Below, one piece after another: positions 10,191 to 20,743 of a stretch of 64,000 nt of DNA. How positions within the stretch are numbered: position 1 is the stretch's first letter; every line of letters begins with the position of its first letter. Both the position numbers and the translations under genes were made by a program. Source of the stretch: Nanobdellota archaeon (GTDB taxonomy: Archaea > Nanobdellota > Nanobdellia > Pacearchaeales > GW2011-AR1); the NCBI GenBank assembly GCA_024654565.1, contig JANLHM010000009.1, forward strand, positions 89,945 through 153,944, written 5' to 3'. The notes beneath the pieces are model-generated. The model worked only from the letters and a program-made list of their open reading frames with translations, did no database searches and had not been told where the DNA came from.

Positions 10191-12230
10191 TTAAATTTTC
10201 TTTCTTCTGAGTAAGTTAGCATTCCCGACAACAGTTATTGAAGAAGCTGCCATTGCAATTTCAGCTATAACTGGATGTAAAACTCCTGCCACAGCAAGAG
10301 GGATTGCAATAGTGTTGTATGCAAAAGCCCAGAATAAATTTTGCTTTATTTTTGAAAATGTTGCTTTGGAGAGTTCAATTGCTTGAACAACTCCTGTTAA
10401 AGAACCTTTAGTCAAAACGATGTCCCCAGATTCTATTGCAATGTCTGTTCCAGTACCCATAGCAATTCCAACATTAGCCTGTTTTAATGCTGGGGCATCA
10501 TTAATTCCATCTCCGACAAAAGCAACAAAAGTCCCCCCATTTTTATCTTGAATTCTTTTAATTTCAAGAGATTTTCCCTCAGGAAGAACATTTGCTATAA
10601 CTTTTTTTATTCCTACTTCCTTTGCAATAGCTTCTGCTGTTCTTTCATTGTCTCCAGTAATCATAACCGTATAATATCCCCTCTTATGTAATTCCTTTAA
10701 AGCCTTAAAAGAATCTTCTTTAACTGAATCAGCCACAGCAATAAGGCCCAAAACTTTTTTATCTTTTTCAAGGGCAAGAGCCATAACAGTTTTCCCTTCT
10801 TTTTCAAGGTCTTCAATTTTTTTAGAAAAATCTTTTAAGTTAATCTTATTTTCATCCATTAGCCTTTTGTTTCCAATTAAATATTTTTTATTGAGAACAG
10901 TCCCTTCAATTCCCCTTCCCCTTAAGTTTTTAAAATTCTTAACTACCTTGTAATTTTTTAAATTTGCATAGTTAACAATTGCTTTAGATAAGGGGTGTTC
11001 AGACAACTTTTCCAAGCTCCCTGCAACTTCTAAAAATTCTTTTTCTTTAACTCCTTTTCCCATTTCAACATTAGTTACTTCTGGCTTTCCTTTTGTAATT
11101 GTTCCAGTTTTGTCAAATACGATCACTTTGACATTTTTCATTGTCTGAATTGCTTCACCTTTCCTTATCAAAATGCCCCTCTTAGCACCCATTCCCGAAC
11201 CAACAGTCAAAGCAATTGGAGTAGCTAGACCAAGGGCACAAGGACATGAAATCACAAGAACCGCAATACTTGCCCCAAATGCAGAACTAAAATTTCCAAA
11301 AATGCTCCATCCAATAAAAGTCAAGATTGACAAGGCTAAAACTGAAGGAACAAAAATATTTGTAATCTTATCCGCCATTTTTTGAATCGGAATTTTACTT
11401 CCTTGAGCTTCTTCAACAAGGTCAATAATATGAGCTAAAAAAGTGTCTTTTCCTACTTTTGTTGCTTTGACATATAAAATTCCATCCTGATTTATTGTTG
11501 CTCCAATAACATTACTTCCCTTGAGTTTGTCAATTGGTAAACTTTCCCCCGTAACCATTGATTCATCAACTGAACTCTCTCCCTTTGTCACAATTCCATC
11601 TGTAGGAATTTTTTCCCCAGGTTTAATAATCATAATATCCCCAACCTTTACTTCTGAAATTGGAATTTCAATTTCAGTTTTCCCCCTTAAAATTCTTGCA
11701 TTTTTTGCACCCATTTCTAAGAGTTTTCTTATTTCCTGACCTGCACGCCCCCTTGCTTTTGCTTCAATATATTTACCCGTAACGAAAATTGCCATTATCA
11801 TTGCGGCAACTCCTGAATAATCTTGAACCGGTAAAAAGAACTGCAAAAATCCTGTGAGATAAGCGACAACAGTTCCTAATGCAATCAATGAATCCATATT
11901 AAAGTAAAAACTAATAAATCCCCTAAATCCCGATTTAAGTGTCGAAAGACCAACAATAAAAATTACAGGAAATGCAAATGTAAGGGAAATTAAAAGCATA
12001 ACCTCACTTGAAAAAACCATCATCCCAAAAATCAAAGGCAAAATATACATAATAAGAATTATTGGAATAGTGAGAATCCATCCCCATATTAATTTCTTTT
12101 TCCACATTTCTATTTCTTTTTCCTCAGGAGTTTCACCATGGTTGTGCAAATATTCTTTATCTTTTTTCGAATGATTCATATCTCTCATATTTTTTTCCAT
12201 TTTAACAATTTTCAATTTCTTTTGCTTCAT
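10191..12230 (-). CDS. copA: Copper-transporting P1B-type ATPase
   Basis: [43 protein letters not shown]. Confidence 0.95.
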
Positions 12231-12432
12231 ATCCAGCTTTTTTTACAGCATGCTTCAACTCTTCATCTTTAACTGTGTCTTCGCACTCAATAATTGCCTT
12301 CCTTGTCATCATACTTACATTTGCAGAATTTATCCCTGAAACTTTTTTCAAGCTTCTCTCGATGTTTGCTGCACACGAAGCACAATGCATCCCTTCAATT
12401 GTAATTTTCTTTTTCATTTTATAACCCCCCAT
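12202..12432 (-). CDS. Stand-alone heavy-metal-associated (HMA) domain
   Basis: [23 protein letters not shown]; GMxCxxC motif. Confidence 0.92.
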
Positions 12433-12578: not shown

Positions 12579-13037
12579 TTACTCCACAACCAGTGTTCCG
12601 GTTCCCATGCCCATTGAACAAGAAAACACAAAACTTCCTTTTTTAGTTGGAGTGAATTCTACATAATCTTCAGGAGTTCTAAGATTTTTTGAAATTCCAA
12701 AATCTCTTATCGTAAAACTTCTGTAACACCCTCCGACACTTTTATCAAGGTATATTCTGACAGGTTCATTTACTTTTACAGTTATGGTATTAGGGTAATA
12801 ATTGTAATTCTTGTAACTTAAAGTAATTTTTTGAATATCCCCTGAACCCCCTTCGTTAACTGCTCCTCCAGAAATAGTGGGGGTTTTAATTAAGAAAGCT
12901 CCGACTGCAACAACCAAAAGAATAATCATAACAACAGTAAACCAATTTTTCACGAGAATAATGTGCTCCTTGGTCCATAAACTATGAACCATATTGTTAA
13001 AGTCGTCAAAATTAAACTTAGAGAAATTATCCCCCAA
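12579..13037 (-). CDS. Cupredoxin-like membrane-anchored protein
   Basis: TM then NYYPNTITVKVNEPVRIYLDK…FVFSCSMGMGTGTLVVE. Confidence 0.8.
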   Translation of the reverse strand: MGDNFSKFNFDDFNNMVHSLWTKEHIILVKNWFTVVMIILLVVAVGAFLIKTPTISGGAVNEGGSGDIQKITLSYKNYNYYPNTITVKVNEPVRIYLDKSVGGCYRSFTIRDFGISKNLRTPEDYVEFTPTKKGSFVFSCSMGMGTGTLVVE

Positions 13038-14057: not shown

Positions 14058-14267
14058 TTAACCCAAACATTCCCCGTATATTCCAGGATGATGACTCATG
14101 TGTTCATACCAATCCTGTTCAGTATACCCTGCGGGAACTGCACACTTTTCAGTTCTCGTTTTCCCTGAATCCCTGACTGCATCAATTATGCCCGGAAAAA
14201 AAGTAAAAACAAAAAGCAATAAGACTAAAATTCCAACAACAATATACAAAACAATTTTTTTATCCAC
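14058..14267 (-). CDS. Single-TM protein with Cys/His/Met extracytoplasmic motif
   Basis: TM then CAVPAGYTEQDWYEHMSHHPGIYGECLG. Confidence 0.65.
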   Translation of the reverse strand: MDKKIVLYIVVGILVLLLFVFTFFPGIIDAVRDSGKTRTEKCAVPAGYTEQDWYEHMSHHPGIYGECLG

Positions 14268-14721
14268 TTTTAATTTCCTCCATTTTATTTTTATGTCTAA
14301 CCATTAAAGTAATTCCCACCACATTAGAGATAATTCCAAAACTAAGAAATGCGGGTTGATATTTCATAAGAAAAAGTACTAAACCTGAAGCGCCTACAAG
14401 GGGGATTACATTAAGTAAAAAGTGAGTACAACACGCAATCATGCTCCCTCCAGAAATTCCTCCCGTTGTTGCAACTGTTCCCGTTAATTGTGCATGCTGT
14501 TTTATTGAAACAAATAATCCTATTTGAATTCCAAAACCAATCACAAGCGGAAAAATTAAGTACCATAAACTCCTTAAATTCAATAATGCAAAATCAATTC
14601 CCTGAAAAAGAGTTATAACTCCCACATAAAATCCAATTAAGATCAAACTTGAGAAAGCACCCCATAAGATGGACTTATCCTCCCCAGAAATCTTTCCGTT
14701 TTTATCCCCACAACAATCCAT
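14260..14721 (-). CDS. Membrane protein with ACCTH motif
   Basis: MDCCGDKNG…SMIACCTHFLLNVIPLVGASGLVLFLMKYQ. Confidence 0.65.
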   Translation of the reverse strand: MDCCGDKNGKISGEDKSILWGAFSSLILIGFYVGVITLFQGIDFALLNLRSLWYLIFPLVIGFGIQIGLFVSIKQHAQLTGTVATTGGISGGSMIACCTHFLLNVIPLVGASGLVLFLMKYQPAFLSFGIISNVVGITLMVRHKNKMEEIKSG

Positions 14722-14727
14722 TTATAT

Positions 14728-15168
14728 TTACCAATTCCTGCAACATTCTATTAATTTATTTACAAAACTTTTTGACTTTTTGTTTGAAAAAATAAAGATT
14801 ACACTAAAGATAAACCATAATCCAATTAAAATAAAAAAAGAGATTTTTTCAAAACCAGACAAAATAAAATAGATTATTGAAATGAAAGTTAACAATAAAG
14901 GAAGTCTGAAAACTTTTACTTTTTCACTAGCATTAGATTCGAAAATGTAAAACAAACCAAGTGAAGTGTGACCCATTAGTATTCCAAGAAGAATTTTGTC
15001 ATCAAATAAACCATATAAATTCAAAGCTAAAAGAATAATCCATGTCAAAGTTACAGATGCACAGATCACACAAAATTTTTTCTTAAATTTTTCAGAAAAG
15101 AATTCTTTTATCCCAAGTAAAACAAAAAAGAGAAGAAGTATTCCTCCGAGAACAAAATAAAATTCCAT
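14728..15168 (-). CDS. Multi-pass membrane protein with CVIC motif
   Basis: KKFCVICASVTLTWIILLALN. Confidence 0.6.
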   Translation of the reverse strand: MEFYFVLGGILLLFFVLLGIKEFFSEKFKKKFCVICASVTLTWIILLALNLYGLFDDKILLGILMGHTSLGLFYIFESNASEKVKVFRLPLLLTFISIIYFILSGFEKISFFILIGLWFIFSVIFIFSNKKSKSFVNKLIECCRNW

Positions 15169-16029
15169 TTAATTAATTACTTTCATGCCTGAATTTTCCC
15201 AAGCATTCATTCCCCCATCCAAATCATAAACTTTGTAACCCATCCCTTTCAATTTTTCCGCGACAATTCCTGACATTCTTCCACTTTTGCAATAAACTGC
15301 AATAGGTACTGAAAGGTCTTTTGGAAGCTGATCCATGTACTTTTCAATGTTTTCCCAATCTTCAACAACTAAATCGGTTCCTTCAAGTTCACCCACGTAC
15401 GGAGTGTGAGTATTCAATAAAAAAACATCTTCGTTTTGAAGGAGATACTGAAATTCTTCAGGAGAAAGATTTTCAATTGACCCAGTGGGGGTTGTTCCCC
15501 CTAATTCGGGTAAAGCAAACTGCAAAATAGTTCCAAAGAGAATTAAAAGAACTAAAGTCAATACAGTTCCTTGAAAAGGAATTGTTTTTCCTTTCCTTTT
15601 TTTAGTTAATGATTTACTCAAAATTGGGGAGGCAAAAACCAACAGACCCCCAAAAAGTCCGCTAAAAATTGAATAATTAACCGCATAAGTTTTCCCATAT
15701 TCCCCCATAAAGAAAAGATACAAGGGTCCAACTGCACTAAATATTGGAAGCAAAGGAAGAAGTGTCAGCAAAAAAACTCCAACAACAATTAAAGTTTTTT
15801 GGAATTTAAAATAATTTTTTTTAACAACTTTTGACATCCATAATCCCATTGACATTGAAAACCCTCCAACAAACAAAGCAACTACAACTTTACCGACTCC
15901 AAGCCATACTGCCCCAGTAGCTGCAGCACCAGCCCCGATTGTGCAAAGAGGGCAATGAGCACTGACTTCTCTTATTGAAAAGATTGCCAACCCCAAAAAA
16001 GTTAAAAATAAAAAATTTAATTTTTTCAT
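15169..16029 (-). CDS. Multi-pass membrane domain (CPLC) fused to rhodanese
   Basis: SAHCPLCTIGAGAAATGAVW N-term; C-term DVFLLNTHTPY…VYCKSGRMSGIVAEKLKGMGYKVYDLDGGMNAW. Confidence 0.85.
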   Translation of the reverse strand: MKKLNFLFLTFLGLAIFSIREVSAHCPLCTIGAGAAATGAVWLGVGKVVVALFVGGFSMSMGLWMSKVVKKNYFKFQKTLIVVGVFLLTLLPLLPIFSAVGPLYLFFMGEYGKTYAVNYSIFSGLFGGLLVFASPILSKSLTKKRKGKTIPFQGTVLTLVLLILFGTILQFALPELGGTTPTGSIENLSPEEFQYLLQNEDVFLLNTHTPYVGELEGTDLVVEDWENIEKYMDQLPKDLSVPIAVYCKSGRMSGIVAEKLKGMGYKVYDLDGGMNAWENSGMKVIN

Positions 16030-16034
16030 TGCAA

Positions 16035-16505
16035 TTATATCCTCATAAACTCAAATAAGCTCCTATCATGATTTACTCCGTATATAACAAAATCTCCTTT
16101 TTTTGCACCAGGCATTCCTGGACTTCCATTTGGCATCCCAGGCATCCCAATTCCTGCAATGTCTGGATTTTCTGTAAGCATCTTTTCAATTGCTTCTAAA
16201 GGAACATGACCTTCAACAAAGTAATCTCCAACAATAGTTGTATGACAACTTTCTAAAAAACCAGGAATTTCATATTTATCCATTATTTTTTTATTGTCTG
16301 TGACAGCGACCATGTTTACATTTGAATTTCCCTTTCCTTTAAAATACTGGAAATAAACTTCACAACATCCACATGATGAAGATTTGTAAATAGACATTTT
16401 TTCATCAAAGTCTTCAAGACTTTTTCCAGATCCACTTCCTGCTAAGAAGACCACTACAAAAACTACCACAATTCCAAATAAAAAATACAAAGTTTTTCTT
16501 TTCAT
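16035..16505 (-). CDS. DUF411-type metal-binding protein
   Basis: MSIYKSSSCGCCEVYFQYF…IPGFLESCHTTIVGDYFVEGHVPLEAI. Confidence 0.88.
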   Translation of the reverse strand: MKRKTLYFLFGIVVVFVVVFLAGSGSGKSLEDFDEKMSIYKSSSCGCCEVYFQYFKGKGNSNVNMVAVTDNKKIMDKYEIPGFLESCHTTIVGDYFVEGHVPLEAIEKMLTENPDIAGIGMPGMPNGSPGMPGAKKGDFVIYGVNHDRSLFEFMRI

Positions 16506-16525: not shown

Positions 16526-16681
16526 TTAACAACCTCCAACCATTCCTCCTGCTGAGGGAGCTACAGCACCAGCAGTACTAGTTGCTGCCTGAACTCCTGA
16601 AGCGCCAACTTGAAAAACCAAAACTAAAGCCACAATAAACAGAATTCCTATAACTCCCCAGAGTAATACATTTCGTTCCAT
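16526..16681 (-). CDS. Single-TM small protein ending MVGGC (ORF track start 16780; RBS-supported ATG at 16681)
   Basis: MERNVLLWGVIGILFIVALVLVFQVGA…GGMVGGC*; AAAGGAGGT just upstream of ATG. Confidence 0.65.
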   Translation of the reverse strand: MERNVLLWGVIGILFIVALVLVFQVGASGVQAATSTAGAVAPSAGGMVGGC

Positions 16682-16769
16682 CTTTATTTTACCTCCTTTC
16701 AAGTTTTCTGAATTTCCATCTAAATCCTTGCAACATCCATCATGATTTTTCGTTTTACAACAATCCATT

Positions 16770-16997
16770 TTAACAGCCACCCACCATTTGGTTATTTACA
16801 GGTGAAGCTCCTCCTCTTACTCTTGAAGGAATTGTTCCATGCATTTCATAATTCATTATTTCATTTACACTCCACCCTGTTGTGTCTATTTCCCCTTCAA
16901 TTGTAGATGTACTTCCAAACCCTGCCTGAAAAACCAAAAATAATGCAACTATAAACAAACCCACCATCACAATCCAAATTGCAATATTTTTTTCCAT
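16770..16997 (-). CDS. Single-TM small protein ending MVGGC
   Basis: MEKNIAIWIVMVGLFIVALFLVFQAGFG…NNQMVGGC*; upstream AGGAGG. Confidence 0.75.
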   Translation of the reverse strand: MEKNIAIWIVMVGLFIVALFLVFQAGFGSTSTIEGEIDTTGWSVNEIMNYEMHGTIPSRVRGGASPVNNQMVGGC

Positions 16998-17090
16998 TTT
17001 AAAATTTCCTCCTTTTATTTTTATTTATTATATAAAAAAAAGGAAAGGGATGTAAAGACCCCAAAAAATTAAAATATAAACTGTTCATCT

Positions 17091-17753
17091 TTAACATCCT
17101 CCCACCATAGAACCACCTGAAGTTTTACCTTGCTCAATTCCTCTGTAAAGATTTGAAGCAAGATTCACATAATCCTTTGAATCAATTCCATTTTCCTCTA
17201 AAGCTATTGCTTTACTCTCATGAATTTCGGGGAAAAATAGAACTTTCCATTTTCCCAGTTCAGACAAAATTTCAATATCTGACATTTCGGGATTGTTTAT
17301 TAATAAATACTTTGCAAGACCCCTCATTGCATAACTGTGAGCACATCCACACGCCCTTTCTCCGTTAGCAAAGATGATTGAATTTGCTCCACAGCAATAT
17401 TCACAACTTATTGAACCTGCAATTTTTGTGTATCTATTCATCTCTTCAGAATTTAAATCCATATCTTCATATTGGGCAAGTTTCCTTATTGTTGCATCGG
17501 CAAGCTGGGGATTACTAGCAGTCACATCGTCATAACTAACTCCTAATACGGTCCCATAAATTGCTGGAACTCCTTTTGGGATGATTTCAGAAGCTGAAAC
17601 TGTTCCAATACCTCCAACAGACTGACCTGAAGAAACTTTACCAATATTAAATGCAACCACTAAAAGTAAAATTGCAATTATTCCAATCTGGATATATAGT
17701 TCTGTGTCGGGTTTTCCTCCTTTTCTTTTTTCTGTTACGGTTTTGTTCACCAT
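17091..17753 (-). CDS. Membrane-anchored PCYCGC-like protein ending MVGGC
   Basis: TM then CEYCCGANSIIFANGERACGCAHSYAMRGLAKYLL; C-term GGSMVGGC*. Confidence 0.75.
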   Translation of the reverse strand: MVNKTVTEKRKGGKPDTELYIQIGIIAILLLVVAFNIGKVSSGQSVGGIGTVSASEIIPKGVPAIYGTVLGVSYDDVTASNPQLADATIRKLAQYEDMDLNSEEMNRYTKIAGSISCEYCCGANSIIFANGERACGCAHSYAMRGLAKYLLINNPEMSDIEILSELGKWKVLFFPEIHESKAIALEENGIDSKDYVNLASNLYRGIEQGKTSGGSMVGGC

Positions 17754-17849: not shown

Positions 17850-18347
17850 TTGAGTATGGAAAACAAACATGTGGGTTACCTTTTGATTGGAATTTCAATA
17901 TTAGTAATAATAATTGTTCTAATGTTCAACTCCACTTTAAAAGAGATTGTAACATCTAGCTGCACATTGGCTCACGGAGACTCAACGTCATGCCCAATGT
18001 ATGAAACAATAAACAAGCAGACATACATTGCATTAGGGGTTATAGGCCTTTTAATCATAGTCAGTCTAGTTCTAATTTTTTCTAAACCCGATGAAAAAAT
18101 AGTAATTAAAAAAATAAAGGAAAAACAAATAAAGAAGTCAATTGACAAGTCAAAACTTGAAAAAGATGAAAAGGAAGTAATTAATTTTTTAATAAATGAA
18201 GGAAATGCAGTTTTCCAAAAAGACTTGATGGAAAAACTTGAAATAGGTAAAGTAAAAATGACTCGACTTCTAGATAAACTCGAAGCAAAGCAGTTTATTA
18301 TAAGAAAAAGAAGAGGAATGAATAATATAGTTGTTTTAAAAGAATAA
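17850..18347 (+). CDS. Two-TM protein with C-terminal winged-helix domain; putative membrane-bound regulator
   Basis: TM–SSCTLAHGDSTSCPMYETINKQ–TM–linker–EKEVINFLINEGNAVFQKDLMEKLEIGKVKMTRLLDKLEAK; TATA-like GATATAAAAA at about 17825. Confidence 0.75.
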   Translation: MSMENKHVGYLLIGISILVIIIVLMFNSTLKEIVTSSCTLAHGDSTSCPMYETINKQTYIALGVIGLLIIVSLVLIFSKPDEKIVIKKIKEKQIKKSIDKSKLEKDEKEVINFLINEGNAVFQKDLMEKLEIGKVKMTRLLDKLEAKQFIIRKRRGMNNIVVLKE

Positions 18348-18824: not shown

Positions 18825-18883
18825 CTTTAAATATGAAAAAAAATTGGAAAGTTTACAGAGTTGAAAAGGAGGAAATAGAGTTA

Positions 18884-19654
18884 ATGAGTGAAACAATTCA
18901 AATAAAGAAAGATACTTTTTACAAGGGTTCAATTGTAGTTCTTGCTGTGCTTTTAATAGTCTCTATATTTACAGGAGGTTTTGGAACAGGAGGAACTGGT
19001 GCAGTGACTCAGAATCCGACAGGTGGAACTCCTGCACAAGGAACAGGTGGAGCAGCAGCAACTGCCAACGTGGGGGTAATAACAAATAATCCGGAACTCT
19101 TTCCAGCTTTAGGCCCTGCTAATGCAGAAGATGTGGTAATTGAACTTTCAGACTATCAATGCCCTTATTGTACTTTAGCTTCGGGGATTCCTGAATGGAC
19201 AAAAGAATCTCAATACCAACAGTATAGTGGTCTTATAGGTGCAGCCGGAAAAGTTAAGGAATTAGCAGAAAATGGTGAAATAAGGTTTATCTATGTACCA
19301 CTTGCTTTCCTAGGTGATGAATCAATTGATGCGGCCCAGGCAGCATATTGCGCAGGGGACCAAGGTAAATACTTCGAAATGCATGACGCTATTTTTGCAG
19401 CAAGTACTGGTCCAACTGAACACGATGGGAAGTATTCAAAAGCTAACCTTAAGTTAATTGCGCAAGGTGTAGAAGGTATCGACACAAACGCCTTCAACAG
19501 TTGCCTTGACAGCGATAAAAATAAAGCTAAGGTCGAGCAAGCAACAAGTATTGTACAAGGTGCGGGATTCCAAATTTCAACACCTCAATTCTGGGTAAAT
19601 GGACAACAGTCTCAGGCTTCCTGGACTGCAATACAAGCTGCAATAAACCAGTAA
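18884..19654 (+). CDS. DsbA-like thioredoxin-fold protein 1 (ORF track start 18833; RBS favours ATG at 18884)
   Basis: VIELSDYQCPYC motif; TM anchor; AAGGAGG before 18884. Confidence 0.9.
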   Translation: MSETIQIKKDTFYKGSIVVLAVLLIVSIFTGGFGTGGTGAVTQNPTGGTPAQGTGGAAATANVGVITNNPELFPALGPANAEDVVIELSDYQCPYCTLASGIPEWTKESQYQQYSGLIGAAGKVKELAENGEIRFIYVPLAFLGDESIDAAQAAYCAGDQGKYFEMHDAIFAASTGPTEHDGKYSKANLKLIAQGVEGIDTNAFNSCLDSDKNKAKVEQATSIVQGAGFQISTPQFWVNGQQSQASWTAIQAAINQ

Positions 19655-20047: not shown

Positions 20048-20743
20048 ATGGAAATAAAAAAGAAAACCCTCTACAAAATTTTAGCAGTGACAGTTGTGGT
20101 GGTAGTTTTAATTTTAATAATTAGACCAATAATTCCCACTAATGAGGATGGTGAAGGACTCTTGGTTTTTGAAGACACTTCATTATTTCCGTCTATTGGA
20201 CCAATTGATGCACAAAATGTCGTAATTGAACTTTCAGATTATCAATGTCCATATTGTGTGATGGTTGACGGAGGAGCTAATTGGACAAAAGAAACCCAAT
20301 ATATAAATCAGTATGGGTCTCTCATCGGCACAGCAAAAAAAGTCCAGGAATTAGCAGAAAATGGTGAAATAAGGTTTATCTATGTACCACTTGCTTTCCT
20401 AGGTGATGAATCAATTAATGCGGCTGAAGCGGCATATTGCGCAGGGGACCAAGGTAAATACTTCGAAATGCATGACGCTATTTTTGCAGCAAGTACTGGC
20501 CCAACTGAAAACGATGGAAAGTATTCAAAAGGAAATTTGAAAATAATTGCACAGAGTATTTCTGAAATTGACGAAGATTTATTTGCAAGTTGCTTAGACA
20601 GCAATAAAAACCTTAAAAGAGTAAAACAAGCGCTCTCACTTGCTGAAACGACAGGATTAAAAATTTCAACGCCCCAATTCTGGATAAATGGAGCGCAAGT
20701 CCCTTCTTCATGGCCAGCAATAGAAGCCGCAATAAAAGCATAA
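20048..20743 (+). CDS. DsbA-like thioredoxin-fold protein 2
   Basis: VIELSDYQCPYC motif; paralog of the upstream gene. Confidence 0.9.
   Translation: MEIKKKTLYKILAVTVVVVVLILIIRPIIPTNEDGEGLLVFEDTSLFPSIGPIDAQNVVIELSDYQCPYCVMVDGGANWTKETQYINQYGSLIGTAKKVQELAENGEIRFIYVPLAFLGDESINAAEAAYCAGDQGKYFEMHDAIFAASTGPTENDGKYSKGNLKIIAQSISEIDEDLFASCLDSNKNLKRVKQALSLAETTGLKISTPQFWINGAQVPSSWPAIEAAIKA

Follow-up and report, generated by a model that had tools for sequence, protein, structure and literature searches.

The C-terminal peptide MVGGC and its co-occurring partner family in Nanobdellota archaea

Three adjacent minus-strand genes of a Nanobdellota contig encode proteins that end in the same five residues, Met-Val-Gly-Gly-Cys (MVGGC). 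Why should different proteins share such a tail, and what could read it? The stretch of DNA analyzed here (the window, 64,000 nucleotides) carries the three genes, the largest of which is called LARGE and the two others small partners:

17091..17753 (-): LARGE, 220 aa, with an N-terminal TM segment (about residues 17-40), an unnamed, predicted helical Cys domain and a C-terminal MVGGC
17094..17108 (-): MVGGC tail of LARGE, residues 216-220; V217, G218 and C220 are at least 90% conserved even at 30-40% overall identity
17337..17405 (-): Cys/His site of LARGE, C117-x2-C120-C121-x13-C135-x-C137-x-H139, invariant in a 42-sequence alignment
16770..16997 (-): small partner 1, 75 aa, with a single TM segment, a GWSVNEIMNYEMHGTIPSR segment, an MVGGC tail and GGAGG 5′ of its ATG
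16773..16787 (-): MVGGC tail of small partner 1
16526..16768 (-): small partner 2, with a single TM segment, an Ala/Ser/Gly arm and an MVGGC tail
16529..16543 (-): MVGGC tail of small partner 2

The initial annotation had reported that the three ORFs share this end with differing codons, which the exact codons confirm. LARGE ends in GGSMVGGC (ATG GTG GGA GGA TGT TAA), small partner 1 in NNQMVGGC (ATG GTG GGT GGC TGT TAA) and small partner 2, read as ORF 16526-16780, in AGGMVGGC (ATG GTT GGA GGT TGT TAA). Its description of two of the proteins as short, with a TM segment and a small ectodomain, also fits both small partners. The start of small partner 2 is ambiguous, its 84-aa ORF opening at a GTG within the upstream gene; the candidates for the real start are ATG 16768, one base past the upstream stop (80 aa, MDCCKTKNHDGCC..., of the form MDCC...GCC...), and ATG 16681 (51 aa, MERNVLLW...), which lies 9 nt after a GGAGGT at 16691-16696. 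The segment 16679-16768 (-) probably holds two starts, one for the long form and one, after the GGAGGT, for the short form; in the long form, the GGAGGT bases belong to the codons read as 'KGG', and DCC...KGG N-termini like that of the long form also recur among relatives.

In the entire assembly from which the window comes (772 kb), the pattern ATG-GTN-GGN-GGN-TGY-TAA occurs at three sites only, those of the three window genes, and the reversed control pattern has no match. A census based on DNA patterns with built-in reversed controls, applied to a sample of 380 genomes drawn from the phylum, found MVGGC followed by a stop-like TRR end in 99 genomes, mostly as two to four clustered copies each, against a total of three matches for the reversed pattern. 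With few exceptions the motif occupies the very C-terminus and, when the last codon is left free (MVGG-x-TAA), Cys is terminal in 72 of the 78 cases among the matches listed. Of about 190 genes, nearly all encode the same Met, Val and two Gly. Among the first 124 genes gathered, by contrast, no synonymous codon is missing for Val (four), for either Gly (four each) or for Cys (two), each of the three stop codons is used and 80 different 18-mers occur. Since synonymous codons and stops vary freely while the peptide stays, MVGGC is under selection at the protein level, as the initial annotation had argued from codon drift against a recent DNA duplication. The adjacency of the three genes is a point in favor of chance, or of a DNA segment having recently been duplicated or spread by gene conversion, but the control counts, the diversity of the 18-mers and the conservation of the tail between proteins of 30-40% identity refute this explanation, to which we leave next to no probability.

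Far from being scattered at background frequency, the tail always accompanies LARGE. Homologues of LARGE are present in 102 of the 380 genomes; all 99 tail-bearing genomes have one, and none of the 278 genomes devoid of LARGE has a tail. The co-occurrence with a gene neighborhood that had been anticipated is therefore real and takes the form of a strict co-occurrence with one partner gene. The three genomes with LARGE only carry variants of the tail (L112, L141 and L119, see below). The distribution of LARGE and of the tail is patchy within genus and family. LARGE was also found in 16 loci of an all-species collection that partly overlaps the 380 genomes, in a scan with the window protein that reaches close relatives only; all 16 belong to archaeal metagenome-assembled genomes, with Pacearchaeota, Woesearchaeota and Nanoarchaeota among the named groups. 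No viral or plasmid carriage was found. A literature search for MVGGC as a tag of this kind returned unrelated matches only, and the view that the tag is undescribed is thus upheld. Overall, a protein family and a C-terminal motif that both appear to be undescribed recur together in about a quarter of the sampled genomes of one archaeal class, whose members have tiny genomes and mostly unnamed genes.

The LARGE proteins appear to form an undescribed family with an unnamed domain: searches of Pfam, NCBIfam, PDB sequences and PDB folds gave no significant match, all fold matches having E > 0.7. An alignment of 42 diverse members, which share 26-72% identity with the window protein, shows C117, C120, C121, C135, C137, H139, E165 and P175 among the invariant residues, and the pattern CxxCC...CGCxH is found in 100 of the 102 LARGE ORFs. 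AlphaFold2 without templates predicts a confident helical core with pLDDT blocks above 90. In the model of the window protein, the Gly/Ser tail block reaches 71 versus less than 50 for the N-terminal linker; in that of a distant homologue (L049), the linker 309-317 is below 50 and the tail block that follows is at 78. A tail with a higher pLDDT than its linker, as in these two models, is what a docked peptide would look like.

The initial annotation had assigned to the third protein a PCYCGC-like Cys domain, and this assignment did not hold. Like LARGE, members of the PCYCGC family (PF13798) are Cys-rich and membrane-anchored, and some of them occur in the same archaeal loci. However, none of the 42 LARGE proteins matches this Pfam family, and a profile-profile comparison (hhalign) with real PCYCGC proteins of these loci gave a probability of 0.7%. 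A search of the own genome for the PCYCGC family gave no match, and neither did the positive-control genomes of that search. The PCYCGC-type proteins encoded beside LARGE (L055:6060-6506, L059:11995-12456, L060:12026-12493 and L061:4507-4959), unrelated to it by profile, were assigned by a PF13798 match in L055 (E 1.4e-20) and by motif and alignment in the three others.

About 100 LARGE loci were fetched for a comparison of neighborhoods. In almost all of them, one or two small genes encoding the same tail come after LARGE. Their products have one TM segment in 108 of 109 cases, located at the N-terminus, and an ectodomain (median 45 residues) of which about half is Ser, Gly, Ala or Thr; in all 109, the terminal Cys is the only ectodomain Cys. 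When small proteins are grouped by homology and not by tail, 71 of the 72 members of the main cluster end with MVGGC. Lys and Arg average 2.2 before the TM segment and 1.6 after it, which weakly suggests that the C-terminus of the small proteins lies outside the membrane. A lone free Cys on a flexible arm would suit intermolecular disulfides, and DsbA-like proteins are encoded nearby in the window; the terminal cysteines could therefore merely crosslink proteins as a structural hub, MVGG providing a local fit. This explanation, which we consider decidedly improbable, leaves unexplained the fixation of Met, Val and both Gly and the occurrence of QVGGC in both partners of one locus. The two DsbA-like genes (18833-19654 and 20048-20743, +) adjoin each other beside the island and have a very similar core, probably reflecting a tandem duplication.

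The window locus further includes:

16035..16505 (-): DUF411 protein (PF04214, E 2.4e-23) with an SSCGCC motif; 29 of 100 loci
15169..16029 (-): membrane protein carrying an HCPLC motif at the N-terminus and a rhodanese domain (PF00581, E 8e-9) at the C-terminus; 42 of 100 loci
14260..14721 (-): small multi-TM protein with an ACCTH motif, no family
12579..13037 (-): membrane-anchored cupredoxin (PF13473, E 3e-11)
12202..12432 (-): HMA metal-binding protein (PF00403, E 2.6e-16) with a CASC motif
10191..12230 (-): P-type ATPase of the CopA type with a CPC motif (PF00122, E 1e-56)
17850..18347 (+): divergent regulator, two TM segments followed by a MarR-like winged helix (PF24034, E 3e-7); 52 of 100 loci

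Two operon types were distinguished. Type I, that of the window, comprises the two-TM MarR-like regulator (divergent in the window), LARGE, one or more small genes, DUF411 and rhodanese genes and, further on, genes of multi-TM Cys proteins, a cupredoxin and CopA. Type II comprises LARGE, a small gene, one gene for a protein carrying three thioredoxin-like CxxC segments and one for a CcdA/DsbD_TM transporter, and is often divergent from a regulator of the penicillinase-repressor/CopY type. The transporter was recognized by a PF02683 match and the three-CxxC protein has weak, below-cut-off matches to thioredoxin (45 and 54 of 100 loci, respectively); a DsbD/CcdA-type transporter with a thioredoxin-like partner is absent from the type I locus of the window. 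Some loci carry no copper genes inside the fetched stretch. The CopA-type ATPase, HMA, cupredoxin and DUF411 genes of the island point to copper and thiol chemistry. These neighborhoods, together with the TM counts of the small proteins, substantiate the proposal that the tail is enriched in single-TM proteins of copper/thiol clusters. The loop between the two TM helices of the MarR-like regulator contains SSCTLAHGDSTSCPM, and this protein may be a membrane sensor of metal or redox state. The product of the gene that follows the rhodanese gene (14728-15168, -) and a family of about 164 aa, which occupies the corresponding position in 25 loci, have CC-motif ends (ECCRNW in the window, DCCKE or ECCKE in relatives), possibly a second C-terminal Cys signature.

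Which of these proteins would read the tail? In type II loci, LARGE and the small protein alike end with (S/N)(I/L)x(D/N/E)LPxMVGGC. Of 85 tailed loci, 82 have a LARGE and a small protein that agree in the presence or absence of LP, and small proteins bear the tail type of the LARGE clade in 93 of 97 cases; both counts are uncorrected for relatedness. Where the LARGE clade and the set of neighbors conflict (L104 and L147; L065 and L078), the tail type goes with LARGE. Furthermore, Pro was lost from both LARGE and small tails in L116, and in L112, whose LARGE lacks MVGGC, both LARGE and its small partner end with QVGGC. LARGE also lacks MVGGC in L141, where it ends with QVGGC and the small gene was not seen on a 2-kb contig, and in L119, where it ends with IVGEC and has no small partner. 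Tail-less LARGE proteins occupy 12 of 100 rows of the tree and require at least five changes on it, and each of their loci retains a tailed small partner. The association of tail types rests largely on one deep split of the LARGE tree and on two clean derived changes (L112 and L116).

LARGE is thus a domain that both co-occurs and co-varies with the peptide, as a receptor should, and the simplest reading of these patterns is that LARGE itself would read the tail, in cis or in trans. Thioredoxin/CcdA, rhodanese and membrane-protein genes are also frequent neighbors, and the reduction of surface cysteines would be a natural task for a CcdA/thioredoxin pair, so that one of these proteins might be the shared reader and LARGE one of its clients. 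However, none of these neighbors is present in all loci or in the same form across both operon types, and where the neighbors are of the other type, the tail type is still that of the LARGE clade. We regard this alternative as rather improbable.

The initial annotation had left open a lipidation or sorting signal, a disulfide or metal handoff site, or a recognition site for an enzyme of the island. Our results favor recognition and handoff. Lipidation or sorting is disfavored because no TM helix or basic segment follows the motif, no processing enzyme is found among the recurrent neighbors and the tail type tracks LARGE. A processing or sorting signal, in which some enzyme would cleave, lipidate or crosslink the terminal Cys as in sortase-like or CTERM systems, would account for a motif placed nearly always at the exact C-terminus, with five fixed residues, and common to unrelated-looking proteins. 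The MYXO-CTERM, GlyGly-CTERM and PGF-CTERM signals are short C-terminal sorting motifs followed by a TM helix and basic residues; they are cut by a dedicated protease and occur in many proteins per genome, and MYXO-CTERM has an invariant Cys (PMC11980579, PMC3237569). MVGGC resembles them as a short C-terminal motif common to different exported proteins, and MYXO-CTERM also by its Cys. However, it ends at the stop codon, the TM segment is N-terminal and only two to four adjacent genes carry it, all beside LARGE, which does not fit a genome-wide tag; a CTERM-type signal was rejected on this architecture. No dedicated processing enzyme was found among the recurrent neighbors of the fetched loci; the gene families that these loci have in common include neither a sortase nor an intramembrane protease that could be cognate to the motif, and the two operon types have no candidate protease or transferase in common. 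We therefore consider a sorting signal unlikely. RiPP, ubiquitin-like (GG-C) and prenylation readings were also rejected: no YcaO, radical SAM, E1, JAMM or prenyltransferase was recognized among recurrent neighbors and, if the tail lies outside, the membrane would separate it from any ATP-dependent activation.

MVGGC is a real C-terminal motif that is strongly conserved and tied to a defined partner family, and the comparisons above constrain its function. We give about an even chance to the proposal that it serves the two proteins of an extracytoplasmic module, within a copper/disulfide system, as a peptide for docking and handoff. LARGE, anchored by its N-terminal TM segment, would present the invariant Cys5-His site on its helical domain, and the small partners would act as TM-anchored flexible arms with the last residue as sole ectodomain cysteine. 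The tail, supplied in cis by LARGE or in trans by a small partner, would insert into or beside the Cys/His site, where a pocket would read the free C-terminus and M-V-G-G and the terminal thiol would be delivered. This thiol would most likely take part in coordination and transfer of Cu(I) or another soft metal, or in thiol-disulfide exchange. Either process would take place between LARGE and its neighbors DUF411, rhodanese, cupredoxin and CopA in operons of one type, and between LARGE, the triple-CxxC thioredoxin-like protein and the CcdA-type electron transporter in the other. A pocket that reads a free carboxylate is equally needed by a processing enzyme, and this counts against the docking proposal. 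A bolder form, which we hold only tentatively, makes LARGE a new receptor-enzyme fold in which interchangeable MVGGC tails, its own or those of the small arms, serve as plug-in ligand or substrate thiol, giving a metal or redox site exchangeable in cis and trans and unlike any known system.

The proposed action resembles that of a docking peptide combined with a swinging thiol arm. Peroxisomal SKL and encapsulin cargo peptides are likewise short C-terminal peptides read by a partner and portable between proteins; here, however, the proposed receptor also bears the peptide and the last residue is a reactive Cys. In the CC tail of mercuric reductase and the GCUG tail of thioredoxin reductase, a flexible C-terminal arm, of the same subunit or of the other subunit of a dimer, brings a thiol to a buried site of metal binding or redox chemistry, whereas MVGGC has a single Cys in a fixed MVGG context and its arm would come from separate small membrane proteins. 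The Scs system (ScsB/ScsC) offers a comparison for the type II loci in particular, since it combines extracytoplasmic thiol proteins with a DsbD/CcdA-type electron transporter in copper tolerance; ScsC binds Cu(I) and is kept reduced by a DsbD-like protein, a precedent for a copper-thiol link (PMC8900818), and a DUF411 protein responds to copper stress (PMC6444534). However, LARGE has no thioredoxin-family match, and a thioredoxin-fold, ScsC-like isomerase was rejected as the central protein, LARGE having no Pfam, PDB sequence or significant fold match. To our knowledge, Scs proteins carry no MVGGC tail and have no small tailed partners. If the docking proposal is true, plug-in thiol tails may be the means by which these archaea move copper or electrons outside the cell, and MVGGC would be a precise handle on this process: five residues, one reactive atom and one candidate receptor.

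Other arrangements were observed in some loci. In L053, L071 and L137, a tail-less LARGE (402-412 aa) is fused to a four-TM GxICPVCxSIG protein related to standalone neighbors. L126 carries, beside a normal MVGGC gene, two extra small ORFs ending with NLRVSTSLVGGC and NLRTTVSLVGGC, a possible family of tail variants. In the window, a 69-aa single-TM protein (14058-14267, -) ends with YEHMSHHPGIYGECLG and is similar to the YEMHGTIPAR segment present in some of the small MVGGC proteins.
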